Below are positions 13,351 to 21,984 of a stretch of DNA of 64,000 nt, in pieces. The translations under genes and the position numbers were made by a program. Positions within the stretch are counted from its first letter, which is position 1, and every line of letters begins with the position of its first letter. Location of the stretch: assembly GCA_022072055.1 (NCBI GenBank), contig JAJVIK010000017.1:124001-188000 (forward strand), written 5' to 3'. The stretch comes from a bacterium (GTDB taxonomy: Bacteria; Hinthialibacterota; Hinthialibacteria; OLB16). The notes under the pieces were generated by a model that was not told the DNA's origin, did not search any database, and saw only the letters and a program-made list of their open reading frames with translations.

Positions 13351-13950
13351 ATGCGGAGGTTCACCACAGAGGGGGTTGTAGGGATTATCGGGTGCCTGAT
13401 GGGGTTTGGGATTCTAGCGGGGGTTTCCGGGCGCTCGGAGGCGTTCTGGTTCAGCGAACCGGAGGAGCGGATTCTGGTGGTCGGGGTGCCGAGCGAATTC
13501 CAGCCATACTTGGCGAAGTTTCTCGCTGAAGAGGGGGTGCCCTACCGGTTGGACGCCAGGACGCGCACCTTTTATGTCACGGCGGAGCCCATTGGGATTC
13601 TGGAGAAGGCCCAGAAGGTCCGCCCGATTGATACAATCGCGCGCCGGGGCCTCCTGGAGCGCCGACTGGAAAAGGAGTTCCGCCGCCGCTGGCCGAAGGT
13701 TGAGGATCCGAGGGTTTGCCTAGCGTTCCCGGATTACATTCGGGACAAGCAGCCGGATGCCGAGCCGATTGCCTTCATCCTAGCACGCGGACTATCGAAG
13801 AGCGCTGCCGAGGAGGCGAAGTTGCTGGTGGCGGAGACTGTGAGCGGGCTGCCGCTCAAGAATATCGCTGTGGTGGGCGCCGATTGGCGGCCGGGGCCGG
13901 CGTATGGCTCAGGCGGCGAGGGCCGGACTCGGATCGCGAGGCGAGATTAG
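13351..13950 (+). CDS. Exported FliF-like protein (ring-building motifs RBM1 and RBM2 only)
   Basis: 199 aa. Residues about 9-30 are a hydrophobic signal or anchor (VVGIIGCLMGFGILAGVSG). Residues 40-85 (ILVVGVPSEFQPYLAKFLAE, then EGVPYRLD...FYV) line up with the start of the neighbouring FliF (LLFTDLTESEIREAVRFLKG, then NGVRYSVRD...IYVYE). Residues 105-178 (RRLEKEF ... PRVCLAFPD ... AFILARGLSKSAAEEAKLLV ... GLPLKNIAVVGADW) match FliF RBM2 (EEELADTI ... ARVHITE ... VVAKELPPEVVMGIQSVVAS ... SLKPADVVVTDQN). The beta-collar and C-terminal membrane/FliG-binding parts of FliF are absent. It lies between fliE and fliF with fliF 151 nt downstream. By inference it is a periplasmic partner or modulator of the MS ring. 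A type III secretion SctJ-like protein is an alternative, but there is no lipobox. Confidence 0.65.
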   Translation: MRRFTTEGVVGIIGCLMGFGILAGVSGRSEAFWFSEPEERILVVGVPSEFQPYLAKFLAEEGVPYRLDARTRTFYVTAEPIGILEKAQKVRPIDTIARRGLLERRLEKEFRRRWPKVEDPRVCLAFPDYIRDKQPDAEPIAFILARGLSKSAAEEAKLLVAETVSGLPLKNIAVVGADWRPGPAYGSGGEGRTRIARRD

Positions 13951-14101: not shown

Positions 14102-15709
14102 ATGCCCGATTGGTTTTCGCGCCTAGGAGGAGACCTCGGTCGAGTTTGGGAACAGCTTTCAGCCGCCCAGAAATGGCTGGTCGGGGGGATCACCGGGGCC
14201 TTGATCGCGGGCCTGGTGGGGGTCGCCATCTCGGTCTATTTTGTCCCCTCCGGGCAACTGCTCTTCACGGACCTGACAGAATCCGAAATCCGGGAGGCGG
14301 TGCGTTTCCTCAAGGGAAACGGGGTCCGCTATTCGGTTCGCGACAGCGACATCTATGTCTATGAGGACCGTGACAAGGTGCTCATGGACTACTCCATCGC
14401 CCACAGCGACAAGCCGCTGGGGGGCAGACGGTACCTCAAGGAATTCAGTCTCAGCCGGACCAACGCGGAATTCAACGAGCTGCGCATGCGCGCGCTGGAG
14501 GAGGAGCTCGCGGACACGATCCAAGCTCGCTCCGACCTGGTGGACTGGGCGCGGGTCCACATCACCGAGGGGAAGGAAGGGCTGTTCCGCTCGACCGACA
14601 AGAAGCCCACCGCCTCGGTGAAAGTCGGCGTGGTGGCCAAGGAGCTCCCCCCGGAAGTGGTGATGGGGATTCAGAGCGTGGTGGCCAGCGCGGTGCCCAG
14701 CCTGAAACCGGCGGATGTGGTGGTCACCGACCAAAACAGCCGGATTCTGGCCGGTTTCGTGGAATTGACCGAGGAAGAGCAGCTTTCCACGGAAAAGCAG
14801 AAGGCCGAGGTCCGCGAGCGCGAGAAACGTCTGCAAGCGGTCAACGAGATCCTGACCCCTTGGGTGGGTGAAGGGAATTTCCGGGTCTCGGCGATCGTGA
14901 AGCTTAACTTCGACCGCAAGGAGATCAAGGAGACCTTCCGGGACTCCAACAGCCCGTTCCTGGTGGAGCAGGAGTCCGAGGAAACCAACGAGGAATCCAA
15001 GGAATCCGGTGGAATCCCCGGGACGCCGAGCAACAACCCGGATGACAACCAGATCCAGGGCGAGGCCTCCAAAGGCCAAGCAACCACCAACACCAGTGAA
15101 AGCCAACGGCGCAAGTACGAGCCGGGAACGCTGCGGGAGACCCACACCGAGGTGGCCCTCGGGAAGCTGGAGGAACAGTGGATCTCCATCGTGGTGAACC
15201 AGATTCCCTCGGATGAAGGAGGAAAGCGAACCTATCAGGCGCGCACGGAGCAGGAAATGACCGAGATGGCCAACCTGCTCAAGCCCGCGGTGGCGCACAT
15301 AGAGGATGGGAGCCACCACTTTGTCCTCACCCAGGCCCCGTTCGACATCAGCGTGGCGGTGCGCGCCGAGGAGACCGTGCGCACTCGGGCGATCCGCCAG
15401 AATGTGGAGAGCGCCGCTTTTCTCATCGCCGCGCTGTTTTCCATTATCGTGTTCCTGTACTTCCTGAGGAAAGTGTTCACCGCGCCCACTCCGGAGCGCG
15501 AGCCGGAACCGGAGCTGGAGGAGGAGCGTCCCATGGAGGTCCTGCATCAGCTCGGGTTACGTGAGCTCGGATTGAAGACCATCGGCGATGTGGCCGGTCT
15601 TTCGCCCGAGGAGCAGAAGATTAGAATGATTCGCGAGCAGATCGAGTCCTACGCCAAGGGCGACGCCTCGAAGTTCGCGGGCATCCTTAAGAACTGGCTG
15701 GCGGAGTAG
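14102..15709 (+). CDS. fliF: Flagellar MS-ring protein FliF
   Basis: 535 aa, normal. Forms the MS ring in the inner membrane. N-terminal membrane helix at about 25-50 (WLVGGITGALIAGLVGVAIS), then RBM1 (LLFTDLTESEI), RBM2 (ARVHITEGKEGLF ... SVVASAVPSLKPADVVV) and RBM3/collar. A Gln/Asn/Ser-rich insert lies near 290-340. The second membrane helix is at about 437-458, and the C-terminal cytoplasmic tail is the FliG-binding part. ATG at 14102. fliG follows after 6 nt, so the two are almost certainly translated from one mRNA. Confidence 0.96.
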   Translation: MPDWFSRLGGDLGRVWEQLSAAQKWLVGGITGALIAGLVGVAISVYFVPSGQLLFTDLTESEIREAVRFLKGNGVRYSVRDSDIYVYEDRDKVLMDYSIAHSDKPLGGRRYLKEFSLSRTNAEFNELRMRALEEELADTIQARSDLVDWARVHITEGKEGLFRSTDKKPTASVKVGVVAKELPPEVVMGIQSVVASAVPSLKPADVVVTDQNSRILAGFVELTEEEQLSTEKQKAEVREREKRLQAVNEILTPWVGEGNFRVSAIVKLNFDRKEIKETFRDSNSPFLVEQESEETNEESKESGGIPGTPSNNPDDNQIQGEASKGQATTNTSESQRRKYEPGTLRETHTEVALGKLEEQWISIVVNQIPSDEGGKRTYQARTEQEMTEMANLLKPAVAHIEDGSHHFVLTQAPFDISVAVRAEETVRTRAIRQNVESAAFLIAALFSIIVFLYFLRKVFTAPTPEREPEPELEEERPMEVLHQLGLRELGLKTIGDVAGLSPEEQKIRMIREQIESYAKGDASKFAGILKNWLAE

Positions 15710-15715
15710 GAGACC

Positions 15716-16741
15716 ATGGTCAGGAGAGCCAAGACGGAGGGACCCTCGGAGCTCACCGGGCGCCGCAAGGCGGCGATCCTGCTGGTTTCCCTCGGACCGG
15801 AAATCGCCGCCGAGATCTACCGCAACCTGAGCGACCAGGAGATCGAGCAGGTCACCGTGGAGATCGCGAGCCTGGGGAACCTGAGTCCGGATGCCATCAA
15901 CTCGGTGCTCGAGGAGTTCTATCACACCGCGCTGGCCCAACAGTTCCTGAACACCGGAGGCATTGACGCCGCCCGATCGATTCTGGAAAAGGCGCTGGGA
16001 TCGAAGCGCGCGGTGGAGGTCATGAGCCGGTTGCAGGGAGTCCTCCAGGTCAGTCCCTTTGATTTCGTGAAGCGGGTCGAGCCGGAGCACTTGCTCTCCT
16101 TCATCCAGGGAGAGCATCCGCAGACCATCGCGTTGATCCTCTCGCACCTGTCGCCCGAACAGGCCGCCCCGATCATCAGTTCCCTGCCCCCGGATCACCA
16201 AGCCGAGGTCGCGCTCCGCATCGCCACCATGGACCAGACCACTCCGGAAATCACCCGCGAGGTCGAGCGCGTGCTGGAGCGCAAGATCGCGACCGTGCTC
16301 TCGCAGGAATTCACCATGGTGGGCGGCGTGGAGGCCCTCGCGGAGCTGCTTAACCGAGTGGACCGCAGCACCGAGCGCGCGATCATGGAGACCCTGGAGG
16401 CCGAGAACGCGGAGCTCGCGGACGCGGTCAAGAAGCTGATGTTTGTGTTCGAGGATATTGTGCTGCTCGATGATCGCGCGATTCAGCAAGTGCTCAAGGA
16501 GATCGACCAGCGCGAGCTGGCGATGCTTCTCAAGGGGGCCTCGGATCAGGTCAAGTCGAAGATACTCTCGAACATGTCGCAGCGCGCCGCCGAAATCGTG
16601 AAGGAGGACATGGAGTTCATGGGCCCGGTGCGCGTGCGCCAGGTGGAGGAGGCGCAGCAACGCTTTGTGGCGGTGATCCGCCGACTCGAAGAGGCCGGAG
16701 AGATCACCATTTCGCGCTCCGAGGAAGACCTGATCGCCTGA
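15716..16741 (+). CDS. fliG: Flagellar motor switch protein FliG
   Basis: 341 aa, full length. FliG binds the FliF tail and carries the charged torque helix that interacts with the stator. RRKAAILLVSLGPEIAAEIY is the N-domain, EHPQTIALILSHL the middle-domain motif, and MFVFEDIVLLDDRAIQQVLK the conserved linker/C-domain. The C-terminal R/E/D residues (SNMSQRAAEIVKEDMEFMG) match the torque helix. AGGAG stands five to six bases before the ATG. Tightly spaced between fliF and fliH. Confidence 0.97.
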   Translation: MVRRAKTEGPSELTGRRKAAILLVSLGPEIAAEIYRNLSDQEIEQVTVEIASLGNLSPDAINSVLEEFYHTALAQQFLNTGGIDAARSILEKALGSKRAVEVMSRLQGVLQVSPFDFVKRVEPEHLLSFIQGEHPQTIALILSHLSPEQAAPIISSLPPDHQAEVALRIATMDQTTPEITREVERVLERKIATVLSQEFTMVGGVEALAELLNRVDRSTERAIMETLEAENAELADAVKKLMFVFEDIVLLDDRAIQQVLKEIDQRELAMLLKGASDQVKSKILSNMSQRAAEIVKEDMEFMGPVRVRQVEEAQQRFVAVIRRLEEAGEITISRSEEDLIA

Positions 16742-16744
16742 GCG

Positions 16745-17506
16745 GTGAACGGCATGACAGCGACAAGCGGAAAGGTGTTCAAGGTGGTCCTCGAGGAAAG
16801 CCCTGTCCTGGTTCGTTCGGGGGAGCGGCGCGCGTTGCTGGCGCGAGAGGAGGCGGATCGGCTTCTGTCCGAGGCCGAGGAAGCCAGCGAGCGACTTCGT
16901 CGAAGCGCGGTTCAGGCCGCGGAGCGTGAGCGGCATGGGGCCCGTCTTGAGGCGCAGAGGATCGCCCGCGAGGCTGAAATGCAGCGGGAGGCGGTCTTCT
17001 CGGCTGCGCGGGAAGAGGCGCGCGAGCAGGCCCGGGCCGAGGTGATGGCGGAGTTCCGTCCGCGGATCGAGGAAGCGGTGAGCGCGTTCGAAACCGTTGT
17101 GCGCGACGCGGAACGAGCCTTCAACGAGTGCCTGGAGCATCACAAAGGGGAAATTGTGGGCCTCGCCTTGGGGATTGCGCGGAAAGTGGTCCGCCGGGTT
17201 TCGGAGGAGGATGCCGCGTTGGTTGTTCGGACCGCCGAAGCCGCGATTCGCCTGGCGCGTGACCGCTCTTCGCTGGCGCTGCGGATCCATCCCAGCGACA
17301 TAGCGATTCTGCGCGAGTTTGAGGAGGACCTGCTCGCGCGTTTCGGCTCGCTGGAGCGCCTCAAGATCGAAACGGATGAGCGCATCGCGCGCGGGGGGGT
17401 CTGGATTGAAACCCCTTCCGGGTTTGTGGATGCGCGCATCGAGACCCAAATCGAGGAGATCATTCGAGCGGTGGCCCCGGATGTGCGCGGGGGAGAGATC
17501 GGCTGA
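16745..17506 (+). CDS. fliH: Flagellar assembly protein FliH
   Basis: 253 aa. FliH is the regulatory/peripheral-stalk subunit of the FliI ATPase. Residues about 35-130 are a long charged coiled coil (EEADRLLSEAEEASERLRRS). The C-terminal domain has GLALGIARKVVRR, LRIHPSDIAILREFEEDLLA and a GGVWIETPSGFVDARIETQI ending, typical of FliH/HrpE. The start is GTG at 16745; an ATG at 16754 is equally plausible. It begins 3 nt after fliG and ends 17 nt before fliI. Confidence 0.9.
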   Translation: MNGMTATSGKVFKVVLEESPVLVRSGERRALLAREEADRLLSEAEEASERLRRSAVQAAERERHGARLEAQRIAREAEMQREAVFSAAREEAREQARAEVMAEFRPRIEEAVSAFETVVRDAERAFNECLEHHKGEIVGLALGIARKVVRRVSEEDAALVVRTAEAAIRLARDRSSLALRIHPSDIAILREFEEDLLARFGSLERLKIETDERIARGGVWIETPSGFVDARIETQIEEIIRAVAPDVRGGEIG

Positions 17507-17523: not shown

Positions 17524-18879
17524 ATGCCGCCGGTCATCGATGTGCCCGAGGTGGAATGGGGTTACTACCAAAAGCGCGCCTCGGAATGTGAGCCGATTCG
17601 CGAGGCCGGGCGCGTGGAGGAGGTCATTGGACTGGTGATTGCCGCGCATGGTCCGGGCGGGAGCATCGGGGATGTTTGCGAGATCCGCTCGGAGCGTCTC
17701 GCGGAGCCGGTGCGAGTGGAGATTGTGGGGTTCCGGAAGGGCAGGACCTTGCTCATGCCGCTCGGAATGCTAGCCGGAGTGGCCCCTGGCGATGAGGTGA
17801 TCTCGCTCGGGAGCGAGAACCAGGCGGCGGTTGGTCCGGGGCTTTTGGGGCGAGTGATTGATGGGTTGGGCAAGCCGATGGATGGCAAGGGCCCGATCCT
17901 CTTCAGCGCGCGCGCGCCGTTGCACCGTGAACCGACGGATGCGATGGCCCGTCGGCGCGTGGAGCAGGCGCTGGCGACCGGAATCAAGTCGATCGATGGA
18001 CTGATCACGCTCGGCGAGGGGCAACGCGTGGGGATCTTCGCCGGCAGCGGAGTTGGGAAGAGCACCCTGCTTGGGATGATTGCGCGGTACTGCACGGCGG
18101 ATGTGAACGTGGTCGCGCTGGTGGGGGAGCGCTCGAGAGAGGTGCGAGAATTCATTGAACGGGATTTGGGAGAGGCGGGGCTGGCGCGGAGCGTGCTTGT
18201 GATCGCCACCAGCGACCGTCCCGCGCTGGTTCGCATCCGCGCGGCGTTGCTCTCGATGACCATAGCCGAGTGGTTTCGCGATCAGGGCCGGCGCGTGATG
18301 TACATGATGGACTCAGTCACACGGCTGGCGCTGGCGCAACGGGAGATCGGCCTTTCAGTGGGAGAACCCCCAACCTCGCGGGGTTTCACCCCTTCCGTGT
18401 TCACTCTCCTTCCCCGGTTTCTGGAGCGCTGCGGGACTTCAGCGGGTAGAGGCAGCATCACCGGGCTGATCTCGGTCTTGGTGGAGGGGGACGACCTGAA
18501 CGAGCCGATCAGCGATGCGGTGCGAGGGATTTTGGATGGGCACATTGTTCTTTCGCGGCGGTTCGCGGACCGCAACCAGTATCCGGCGGTGGATCCGCTG
18601 CGGAGTGTTTCACGTGTCATGAGCGATATCGTGGATGCACGGCAACGCGCGGCCGCGGCAATCGTGAGGGGAAGAATGGCTACCTACGAAGAGATGGAAG
18701 ACCTGATCAACCTTGGGGCCTACCGCAAAGGCGCGAATGCCGAAGTGGACCTGGCGATCGAAAAGCGCCCGGAAACGGAGCGGTTTTTACGCCAGGAGAT
18801 CGAGCGCGGCTACGAGTTCGAGCAAACCCGGTCGCAGCTCCTGGCCCTGGCGGGGGCCGTAAACGAGGGAAGCGGATGA
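17524..18879 (+). CDS. fliI: Flagellum-specific ATPase FliI
   Basis: 451 aa. Hexameric F1-beta-like ATPase of the flagellar type III export apparatus. Walker A AGSGVGKST is at 173-181, Walker B is VMYMMDSVTR, and ALAQREIGLSVGEPPTSRGF is the FliI/T3SS ATPase signature. ILDGHIVLSRRFADRNQYPA is also family-specific. There is no truncation. Its stop overlaps the next gene by the ATGA arrangement (18876-18879), so FliJ-MotE is translationally coupled to it, as expected for partners. Confidence 0.97.
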   Translation: MPPVIDVPEVEWGYYQKRASECEPIREAGRVEEVIGLVIAAHGPGGSIGDVCEIRSERLAEPVRVEIVGFRKGRTLLMPLGMLAGVAPGDEVISLGSENQAAVGPGLLGRVIDGLGKPMDGKGPILFSARAPLHREPTDAMARRRVEQALATGIKSIDGLITLGEGQRVGIFAGSGVGKSTLLGMIARYCTADVNVVALVGERSREVREFIERDLGEAGLARSVLVIATSDRPALVRIRAALLSMTIAEWFRDQGRRVMYMMDSVTRLALAQREIGLSVGEPPTSRGFTPSVFTLLPRFLERCGTSAGRGSITGLISVLVEGDDLNEPISDAVRGILDGHIVLSRRFADRNQYPAVDPLRSVSRVMSDIVDARQRAAAAIVRGRMATYEEMEDLINLGAYRKGANAEVDLAIEKRPETERFLRQEIERGYEFEQTRSQLLALAGAVNEGSG

Positions 18880-20129
18880 GGGCCTTTCGCTTTCGGCTGG
18901 AGAAGCTCTTGCGATTTCGGGAGCACCTCGAGGACCTTCAACGAATCGAGGCCGAGGAGCAGCGGCGCAAGTTGGAGGAGACCATGGGATTCCGTGACCG
19001 TTTGTATGGCATCCATGATCAGATCCGTGAAGACTTGTCTCCAGAAGTCGGGCGACAGTGGAAGGGAATCGAGCAGCACGAGCGCTACCGGTACCTCTTA
19101 AGGCTCAACCAGGAGTGTTCTTCAGCTGGGAAGGCTGTCCAGGATGAGACCCAAGAGCTGGTCCGCAAGCGGCAGTCCCTGATTGAGCGTTCACGGGACC
19201 GGAAGGTCCTGGAGAGGCTGCGGGACCGTCGCCTGGAGCACTGGCGTGGGGATCGGGAGCGAGAAAGCCAGCTGGAACTCGATGAAGTGGGCCAGACCCG
19301 GAGAGCGGGAGGGTCTTCCGAAAGTGGGAGAGCCGCATTGCTCATCTTGCTCCTGGTTCTTTGCCTGGCGGGCGGTGTGGGGTGTTATCTGGTGTGGAGC
19401 GGGTGGCTGTCGGGGGGGGGTGTCCCATTCCCGATCCTGAGGAAGCCGTTTGACCAGATGGCGCAGCGTCACGTGGAGCAAGAGATCACGCGATACGAGG
19501 ATCAACAGCGTGCCAGGAGGGCCAAGCGAGAGGAGCGGTTCCTTCAAGCGGGGGGTCCCGAAGCGGCGGCGCTGGCGGGAACCAAGGAAGATGAGGGATA
19601 TCGAAGGACCGCCCAGTTGATCCGTCAGCGTGAAGAAGCGCTCAAGAAGAAGGAAGAGGACCTGGATTCGCGGGAGAGCATGCTGAGGGTTGCGGAAGAT
19701 GAGTTCAAGCGGGAGGTGACCCGGAACAACAATCTTCTGCGGAGGATCGGGGAGCAGCTGGAGGAGCTCAAGGCGATTGAGGCTCGGCGCAAGCAGGAAA
19801 TGGGCGCGGAGCGGGAGGCGAAGCTGACGGACTTGATGGAATCGATCAAGTCGATGACCGAGAAGGGGGCGGCAAAGCTGCTCATTGCGGTGGCGTTTCC
19901 GAATCTTGCGGGGGGCGCGCCTCCGGCCCTTCCGGTTGGGCAAGATCTGGAGGGGTTGGAGCTTGTGGTCGAGATCCTTCATCGCACCCCGGACCGTCAA
20001 CGCGCCGCCATCCTGGATGCGATGGTGAAGACCAACCCCAAGGAGGCGGGAATCCTGTTCGATAGGCTCGACAACATCCGCACGGGCCTTGAGGAAGACC
20101 GCTTTTTCGAGAAACCCACCGGTTCGTGA
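18876..20129 (+). CDS. fliJ: FliJ fused to MotE/YlxF-type membrane protein
   Basis: 417 aa, about three times the length of FliJ. Residues 1-145 are FliJ: FRFRLEKLLRFREHLEDLQR followed by a long charged antiparallel coiled coil. Residues 152-174 are one strong membrane helix (AALLILLLVLCLAGGVGCYL) preceded by TRR. Residues 244-330 form a second coiled coil. Residues about 318-400 (MESIKSMTEKGAAKLLIAVA ... LVVEILHRTP ... ILDAMVKTNPKEAGILFDRL) match the MgtE_N-like end of MotE/YlxF proteins. Predicted topology is FliJ in the cytoplasm and MotE part in the periplasm. The canonical order is fliI-fliJ-ylxF, so this is a fusion of two adjacent genes. It overlaps fliI by 4 nt. No frameshift is seen; the frame is continuous through the join. 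Confidence 0.82.
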   Translation: MRAFRFRLEKLLRFREHLEDLQRIEAEEQRRKLEETMGFRDRLYGIHDQIREDLSPEVGRQWKGIEQHERYRYLLRLNQECSSAGKAVQDETQELVRKRQSLIERSRDRKVLERLRDRRLEHWRGDRERESQLELDEVGQTRRAGGSSESGRAALLILLLVLCLAGGVGCYLVWSGWLSGGGVPFPILRKPFDQMAQRHVEQEITRYEDQQRARRAKREERFLQAGGPEAAALAGTKEDEGYRRTAQLIRQREEALKKKEEDLDSRESMLRVAEDEFKREVTRNNNLLRRIGEQLEELKAIEARRKQEMGAEREAKLTDLMESIKSMTEKGAAKLLIAVAFPNLAGGAPPALPVGQDLEGLELVVEILHRTPDRQRAAILDAMVKTNPKEAGILFDRLDNIRTGLEEDRFFEKPTGS

Positions 20130-20228: not shown

Positions 20229-21035
20229 TTGACCGAGGGCACGGCGCATCGGGGTCTGGCGGGTGGGACGCGGGTCATCGCGGTCGCCAACCAAAAGGGG
20301 GGAGTGGGGAAGACCACCACGGTCATTAACCTCGCCGCCTGCCTGGCCGCATCCCACAAATCCACCCTGATTGTGGACATTGATCCGCAGTGCAACGCCA
20401 CCAGCGGGATTGGGTTCGAACCCCAGGAAAACCCGACCCTCTTGGAGCAGCTTCTGGACCCCCAGCTGACACCGAATCCGATTCCCCACCCCACCATCCC
20501 CGGTTTGGAGCTTCTGACCGGGTGCCCTGAACTGGTTGCCTCTGAAAAAGTCCTCTCGTCAAGGCCCGATCCGGCCCATTCGGTGGCGCGTCTGCTCCAG
20601 AGGCTTCCCCGCGAGGGGGAGGGCTATTCGTACATCTTCCTGGACTGCCCCCCTTCCCTGAACCTTCTCACCCTCAACGCCCTTTCCGCGGCGACCCACC
20701 TCCTCGTTCCTGTTCAGGCCGAGTATTTCGCACTGGAGGGGCTTACGGATATCCTTGAATCGTTTCAATTTGCGCGCGAAAACACGAATTCGGAACTGAC
20801 CCTCTTAGGGCTGGTTCTGACCATGGTGGACATCCGCACCAATCTCTCCCAAGAGGTGGAGACCGAACTCCGCAAACACTACGGAAACAAGGTCTTTCGG
20901 ACCACCGTCCCACGCAATGTCCGCCTCAGTGAGGCCCCCAGTCATGGGATGCCGATCATCCTGTATGACCTCTGGTCGCGCGGCGCGAAGGCGTATATGG
21001 AACTCACAAAGGAGATTCTCAATCATGGTGCGTAA
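20229..21035 (+). CDS. parA: Chromosome partitioning ATPase ParA/Soj
   Basis: 268 aa. Deviant Walker A ANQKGGVGKTTT is at residues 20-31, IVDIDPQCNATSG and IFLDCPPSL are the Walker A'/B motifs, and PVQAEYFALEGL and VPRNVRLSEAPSHG are hallmarks of chromosomal ParA/Soj. It binds DNA nonspecifically as an ATP dimer and moves ParB-parS complexes. The TTG start at 20229 has GGGAGGGGGG just upstream. It overlaps parB by 11 nt. Although it follows the flagellar operon directly, it has its own promoter and is not FlhG/MinD-like. Confidence 0.95.
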   Translation: MTEGTAHRGLAGGTRVIAVANQKGGVGKTTTVINLAACLAASHKSTLIVDIDPQCNATSGIGFEPQENPTLLEQLLDPQLTPNPIPHPTIPGLELLTGCPELVASEKVLSSRPDPAHSVARLLQRLPREGEGYSYIFLDCPPSLNLLTLNALSAATHLLVPVQAEYFALEGLTDILESFQFARENTNSELTLLGLVLTMVDIRTNLSQEVETELRKHYGNKVFRTTVPRNVRLSEAPSHGMPIILYDLWSRGAKAYMELTKEILNHGA

Positions 21036-21984
21036 GGGACTTGGGCGTGGCCTTTCGACCCTGCTGGGCGACCGATCCCCCGTTGAGGGCGAGGAAATCG
21101 AGAATTCGACAGGACTTCCCCACCCCGAAGCCCCCTTTGTCCCCGCCGGTCGGGGGCTGGTGGAGATTCCAGTCGGGGCAATTGAATCGAATCCGTTTCA
21201 ACCGCGGCTCGAAATGGATCCGGCACAACTGGAGGAGCTCGCGCAGTCCATCCGCCAACAGGGGCTGCTGGAACCCCTTCTGGTGCGCACCCATCCCACG
21301 GTTTCCGGACAATACCAGTTGATTGCCGGAGAACGTCGCCTACGGGCCTCGCAGATTGCGGGTCTCGGGCAAGTTCCGGCCCAGGTCCGGGAAGCCTCCG
21401 AGGCGGAAATGCTGGAAATCGCCCTGGTGGAGAATGTCCAGCGCGAGAATCTGAATCCGATTGAGGAAGCCAAAGGCTACCGGATGATCCTGGATGGGAG
21501 CCTTCCGGGCGCGGTCCCGATCACCCAGGAAGACCTGGCGGAAAGGGTAGGGAAGAGCCGTCCGGCCATTGCGAACCTCCTGAGATTGCTGGACTTACCG
21601 GAGAATGTCCAAGCCAGCATCCAGGCTGGCCGTCTCTCGCAGGGGCATGGGAAGGTGCTTGCCGGGCTATCACCGGAACTGCTCCAAAGCGCGTGGGAGT
21701 ATGCGGTTCGCGAGCAGGCCTCGGTCCGGGCGCTGGAGGGTTTTGTCAAGAAGGCCAGCCGAGCCGGCGCCCCACCTAAGGCCAAGGCGAGCGCCCGAAA
21801 GGCCACGGATCCCGCCGCGGGCGCCGATCCCCATTGGACAGCCATTGAAGAGGCCCTTCAGGAGCGACTGCGCACCAAGGTTCATGTGCGCCGGGGAGCG
21901 GATGGTTCGGGGGTGATTGAGGTCTCTTTCTTCAACCACGAGGACCTGGACCGTCTCTTGGAGTGCCTCGATATCGAATTGTGA
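21025..21984 (+). CDS. parB: Chromosome partitioning protein ParB/Spo0J
   Basis: 319 aa from the ATG at 21025 (AAGGAG nine bases upstream), giving the classical start MVRKGLGRGLSTLLG. The N-terminal CTPase domain shows NPFQPR, QGLLEPLLV, GERRLRAS and ENVQRENLNPIEEA. The HTH follows (ITQEDLAERVGKSRPAIANL, then LRLLDLP). The C-terminus is a dimerisation domain after a linker rich in Ala/Lys. It binds parS at 20154-20169. An in-frame start exists upstream inside parA but has no support. Confidence 0.95.
   Translation: MVRKGLGRGLSTLLGDRSPVEGEEIENSTGLPHPEAPFVPAGRGLVEIPVGAIESNPFQPRLEMDPAQLEELAQSIRQQGLLEPLLVRTHPTVSGQYQLIAGERRLRASQIAGLGQVPAQVREASEAEMLEIALVENVQRENLNPIEEAKGYRMILDGSLPGAVPITQEDLAERVGKSRPAIANLLRLLDLPENVQASIQAGRLSQGHGKVLAGLSPELLQSAWEYAVREQASVRALEGFVKKASRAGAPPKAKASARKATDPAAGADPHWTAIEEALQERLRTKVHVRRGADGSGVIEVSFFNHEDLDRLLECLDIEL

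Follow-up and report, generated by a model that had tools for sequence, protein, structure and literature searches.

The window (the whole stretch of 64,000 nucleotides that was analysed) carries a flagellar gene in which FliJ and a MotE-type E-ring protein are joined in one reading frame. That the fusion is real, and that its two halves are FliJ and a MotE-type E-ring protein, is practically certain. As judged from the genomes and loci compared, FliJ and the E-ring protein are separate in every other group checked, whereas in this phylum they appear to be one membrane-crossing protein.

Gene and operon context

The fused gene and its neighbours are located as follows (window positions):

14102..15709, plus strand, fliF (profile search)
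15716..16741, plus strand, fliG (aligned with other FliG, 53-84% identity)
16745..17506, plus strand, fliH (profile search)
17524..18879, plus strand, fliI, upstream of the fusion (Pfam ATP-synt_ab 1.2e-83, T3SS_ATPase_C 3.8e-23)
18876..20129, plus strand, fused fliJ-motE (flgY/ylxF) gene, 417 aa, ATG to TGA, with homologous fused ORFs in 12 other genomes
20229..21035, plus strand, parA-like gene directly 3' of the fusion (named from reading the sequence)

The operon order is flgB, flgC, fliE, a small YscJ/FliF-domain gene, fliF, fliG, fliH, fliI, the fused gene, parA and parB. The fused gene has the fliHI-operon location of a FliJ gene, its start overlapping the fliI stop by ATGA in the window ORF reading. 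Directly 3' of the fusion fliK is absent, and the parA-like gene is found there instead. In all three f1 genomes the flagellar operon continues straight into parA and parB (20229-21984 in the window). The gene between fliE and fliF (13351-13950) encodes a 199-aa protein that matches the YscJ/FliF domain weakly (20.9 bits, E=3.6e-4, below the cut-off of 24.4) and is 51% identical to the product of a gene at the equivalent place in G002; the fliE-fliF gap is also present in other families of the phylum. To judge from these matches, the product is possibly an extra small FliF-like ring component.

The FliJ half

Two features define the first half:

18876..19313, plus strand, FliJ part, aa 1-146, an antiparallel two-helix hairpin with helices 9-53 and 65-146 (profiles, AF2 and Foldseek)
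19278..19292, plus strand, LDEVG motif, aa 135-139, at the C-terminus of FliJ, its position being shared by the 12 full-length fusions and by the split FliJ described below

A sequence-only reading of this DNA had taken the N-terminal part for FliJ, which was borne out by profile comparison. TIGR02473 (FliJ) matched aa 1-152 with E=4.9e-11 over 138 of its 141 model positions, at 43.2 bits and thus below the NCBI cut-off of 50.45, and Pfam FliJ scored 28.3 bits on the excised aa 1-152 (cut-off 28.4); in the whole-genome search the Pfam model gave 29 bits, over the cut-off, only at the fused gene. An HMM built from 55 unfused fliJ of other phyla aligned with aa 1-144 at 70.5 bits, as compared with at most 10 bits for reversed decoys, and profile-profile comparison of the first half with unfused FliJ yielded 99.6%; the assignment of this half to FliJ by profile, with unfused genes of other phyla as reference, has E about 1e-20. 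The AF2 model of aa 1-190 shows the FliJ hairpin with pLDDT mostly 95-98, a 3-residue break and then a helix from about aa 150. Regarding the Foldseek matches of this half, the best was the YscO homologue 3k29 (probability 1.00), with CdsO 6wa9 and FliJ 3ajw also listed and none at E<0.001. No second fliJ, which would have spoken against the earlier reading, was found in a whole-genome profile search of the window genome.

With the FliJ family (TIGR02473/PF02050; Salmonella FliJ 3ajw; YscO/CdsO of type III secretion) the window protein shares the whole two-helix hairpin, the N-terminal MxxFxFxL, the C-terminal LDE motif and the position of the gene right after fliI. The usual FliJ is soluble and 140-160 aa long, whereas in the window form a membrane helix and then a periplasmic protein follow in the same chain. 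Since its FliJ half runs on into the membrane helix and the solubility of a FliJ is thereby lost, the product is a fusion with FliJ, not a FliJ.

The MotE/YlxF/FlgY half

The periplasmic part is made up of three stretches:

19395..19559, plus strand, juxtamembrane periplasmic stretch, aa 174-228 (hydropathy, AF2)
19560..19850, plus strand, long coiled-coil helix, aa 229-325, equivalent of the E-ring "spoke" (AF2 pLDDT 95-98 for most; MotE HMM alignment, aa 144-336)
19860..20084, plus strand, small helical head, aa 329-403, ARM/MgtE_N-like, equivalent of the E-ring "hub" (HMM, AF2, Foldseek)

As reference sequences served the genes that follow fliI in 67 named loci (from Bacillota, Spirochaetota, Armatimonadota and others), where fliJ and ylxF are separate neighbours, as the sequence-only reading had stated for ordinary operons. 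These loci provided the 55 separate fliJ and 47 separate genes with an N-terminal membrane helix for the HMMs; 27 of the 33 membrane-helix genes tested match MgtE_N.

The claim of an MgtE_N-like MotE/YlxF end stood as far as family and fold are concerned but not as a direct domain match: Pfam and NCBIfam, including MgtE_N, gave no match on aa 145-417 of the window protein, whereas comparison of the second half with the unfused MotE/YlxF profile (hhalign) yielded 98.9% with E=1.2e-17, and the split orthologue of G013 passes the Pfam MgtE_N cut-off. The crossed profile-profile pairs (first half with MotE, second half with FliJ) did not match. The HMM of unfused MotE aligned with aa 144-383 of the window protein at 20.8 bits and scored up to 40 bits in relatives, the best reversed decoy reaching 15 bits. 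The AF2 model of the second half, built from 34 sequences and with a mean pLDDT of 85.8, places helices 186-224 and 229-325 after the membrane helix and then a head (329-403) of short helices, in which about aa 341-357 form a Pro/Gly-rich insert. Its best Foldseek matches were FliG 4fhr/3ajc (probability 0.96/0.94), MgtE being also listed and none reaching E<0.001; the same FliG/MgtE-like resemblance has been reported for FlgY (PMC11870540).

By these profiles and models, the second half is assigned to the MotE/YlxF/FlgY/FlbB family (COG3334), for which formation of the flagellar E-ring has recently been demonstrated and with which it shares one membrane helix before a long coil, a small ARM/MgtE_N-like head and a gene next to fliJ, to which it is here fused. 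Members of the family usually begin at the membrane helix or have a signal peptide there, and among the unfused genes examined the length of the cytoplasmic tail ranged from 0 to about 70 aa; in the window protein, the cytoplasmic part is a whole FliJ. No second full-length MotE or other E-ring gene was found in the genomes of the phylum.

Linker, membrane helix and topology

The halves are connected by two short segments:

19293..19337, plus strand, linker, aa 140-154, 10-15 aa in all fusions and the least conserved stretch
19338..19394, plus strand, single membrane helix, hydropathy core aa 155-173, AF2 helix 149-174, preceded by positive residues, N-in/C-out

The strong membrane helix noted earlier was recovered both by hydropathy (KD 2.73 at aa 155-173) and in the AF2 model, and the protein has no other membrane-helix candidate. 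In all fusions the start of this helix follows the C-terminal LDExG of FliJ by 10-15 residues, a linker estimated to span about 5 nm at most if fully extended. Positive residues lie N-terminal of the helix in all fusions, and a cytoplasmic FliJ with a periplasmic remainder is therefore expected; by analogy with the unfused family, the chain would cross the inner membrane once, with the coil and head periplasmic.

An internal translation start at the join was considered as a conserved device and rejected, as it is absent in G006, G007 and G009. Possible starts are a TTG with upstream GGGAG in the window and an ATG in G001 and f4; no start codon at the join is common to all fusions, which argues against separate translation of the halves.

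Distribution of the fusion

The sample of the phylum comprised 14 genomes of five families. A single frame spans both halves in 13 of them (the window and 12 others), representing four families, so that the fusion expected in related genomes was indeed found. In the 14th genome (G013, L030) fliJ ends with TAA and is followed by one GTC codon and then by the separate ATG of a 232-aa motE, all in the same frame. These split genes agree with the fusions in gene order, in frame and in the spacing between LDExG and the membrane helix, and they differ in the TAA, the GTC codon and the separate ATG; the gene after motE was read as fliK. In G002 (L019) the first about 36 FliJ residues lie in another frame, away from the join, apparently by a local frameshift in the MAG or the gene.

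Outside the phylum, 276 genomes were searched with the fusion profile; 85 matched one or both halves, and none had them in one frame. Candidate long open frames of G259, G058, G052 and G185 proved on reading to hold separate genes. The fusion was also absent from the 67 other named fliI-carrying loci, and a profile search of viral contigs with FliG gave no match. (Note that "unique to the phylum" applies to the genomes searched.) A literature search, with subscription papers outside its scope, returned no published report of a FliJ-MotE fusion.

In G001 a second fliI and a weak, unfused fliJ-like gene (8.6-9 bits with the HMM of unfused FliJ) lie at the end of another contig (L172, C590:7500-10339). 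The extra FliI does not group with the phylum, and the locus would thus be either a contaminant or a second export system.

FlhA was present in 13 and flagellin in all 14 genomes of the phylum, from which the cells should be flagellated. Families f3 and f4 (G004-G012, e.g. L178) are rich in flagellin genes, which lie in open frames of about 800-960 codons, as compared with about 620-660 in f1.

Selection on the two halves

Within genus g11 (f4), the FliJ half has a dN/dS of 0.02-0.035, as compared with 0.05-0.07 in FliI; the values are 0.06-0.12 in the coil and head of the MotE half and 0.16-0.24 in the C-terminal tail. In f1 the linker has the lowest identity (21-33% vs 37-58% elsewhere), and the identity of the head (37-47%) is similar to that of the FliJ half (40-45%). 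Both halves are under strong purifying selection and hence are both needed. As no second FliJ was found in the window genome and no second full-length MotE in the genomes of the phylum, no gene other than the fusion is recognisable as a source of either.

Conflict with published motor models and possible arrangements

Since stator scaffolds are built on the E-ring in some phyla, the earlier suggestion of a link of the fusion to the stator side is plausible by analogy. In the model of the Borrelia motor, FliJ has its termini inside the FliI hexamer and its middle directed toward FlhA, and the C-ring and the ATPase complex rotate together (PMC6248999). For the E-ring protein FlbB, 16 dimers surround the MS-ring, and it has been argued that they do not rotate (PMC11750108); the E-ring of C. 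jejuni has 17 dimers (PMC11870540, PMC13023049); architecture and copy number (32-34 copies) of the E-ring come from other phyla (PMC13023049, PMC11750108, PMC11870540). An intact chain cannot serve simultaneously as canonical stalk and as E-ring subunit, because orientation, copy number (1 vs 32-34) and rotation clash. Three solutions are conceivable: FliJ is tethered below the ring as a fringe, the chain is cleaved, or the motor is built differently.

The preferred explanation, with a probability of about one half, is an E-ring subunit that carries FliJ on its cytoplasmic face, the stalk FliJ being freed from a minority of the chains. As in the published E-rings, the periplasmic halves would dimerise and build the ring round the MS-ring, and the FliJ hairpins would hang below it as a cytoplasmic fringe, held by their putative FliI-binding end. 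Most copies would stay intact and offer membrane-side holding sites for FliI or export chaperones, beside the C-ring and the gate, and the single FliJ required within the FliI hexamer would come from a putative minority released at the flexible linker. Against the fringe, the FliI-contacting ends of the FliJ half are strongly constrained, a pattern of conservation that seems to fit a free FliJ better than a tethered one.

Cleavage is ranked second, as a possible though clearly less probable explanation. The polypeptide would be made and inserted as one chain and then efficiently cut at the linker into an ordinary FliJ and an ordinary E-ring protein, so that the fusion would matter only for co-translation and delivery. 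An intact chain could not occupy both published positions, that of the FliJ termini within FliI in a rotating hub (PMC6248999) and that in a static ring (PMC11750108); in addition, both halves are strongly conserved around a least conserved linker, and the FliJ half scores like unfused FliJ. However, no known cleavage site was seen by eye in the linker, no precedent was found in the literature searched, and such processing does not require the fixed linker of 10-15 residues that has been kept in 13 genomes without return of the stop.

That the intact fusion is itself functional, with about 32 FliJ hairpins fixed under a static E-ring and FliI held at the ring and not on a rotating axial stalk, is rather unlikely; no flagellum with such an organisation of the export ATPase has been described. 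The second half might also only anchor FliJ in the membrane, its E-ring building having been lost. This is quite improbable: Pfam MgtE_N misses the window protein and the head carries an insert, but coil and head are under purifying selection in f4, the identity of the head in f1 is like that of the FliJ half, and no other E-ring gene was found.

The proposal of the sequence-only reading, in which the intact fusion would hold the central stalk of FliI at the inner membrane by a tether and have an arm in the periplasm, ranks low and is considered very improbable. In its favour, both halves are complete and conserved. However, the short linker and the near-continuous helix put the FliI-binding end of FliJ at the membrane, upside down with respect to PMC6248999, and a stalk present once in a rotating hub would be joined to a static ring of 16-17 dimers (PMC11750108, PMC13023049). 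An assembly or annotation artefact, for which a G9 run in the gene (19412-19420) could be held responsible, has a negligible probability, as the fusion is repeated in 12 independently assembled genomes, the run falls after the membrane helix with relatives aligned in frame on both sides, and codon-position GC and codon periodicity are continuous across the join; an assembly join or frameshift between the parts is thereby ruled out, and the uninterrupted 417-aa frame noted at first sight is a true fusion.

Unless the chain is cut, current models of the position, copy number or rotation of FliJ fail in these bacteria. The natural 1:1 covalent link of a single-copy, rotor-side part to a stator-side ring of roughly 32 copies represents a built-in experiment, and it provides fusion-based support for the placement of MotE/YlxF near the export ATPase.

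Origin of the fusion

Comparison with the split genes of G013 suggests that the fusion probably arose by loss of the stop codon between two adjacent genes in the same frame. RpoB, FliI and FliG, analysed together with outgroups, gave a tree without a firm position for G013, and monophyly of the fused genomes cost 5.8 log units and was not rejected (AU p=0.39); the tree is therefore compatible with one fusion after G013 had branched off and with one fusion followed by a split. Outside the phylum, a single stop codon separates fliJ from motE in G185 (L176), where both share a frame; the fusion, one mutation away, was not seen there. Among the rpoB loci (L121-L136; G000:C2:38846-43234), the open frames that hold RpoB of f1 are 1396-1632 aa long, and several hundred bases separate the profile positions about 1103 and 1100, which from the alignment reads as a lineage-specific insertion.
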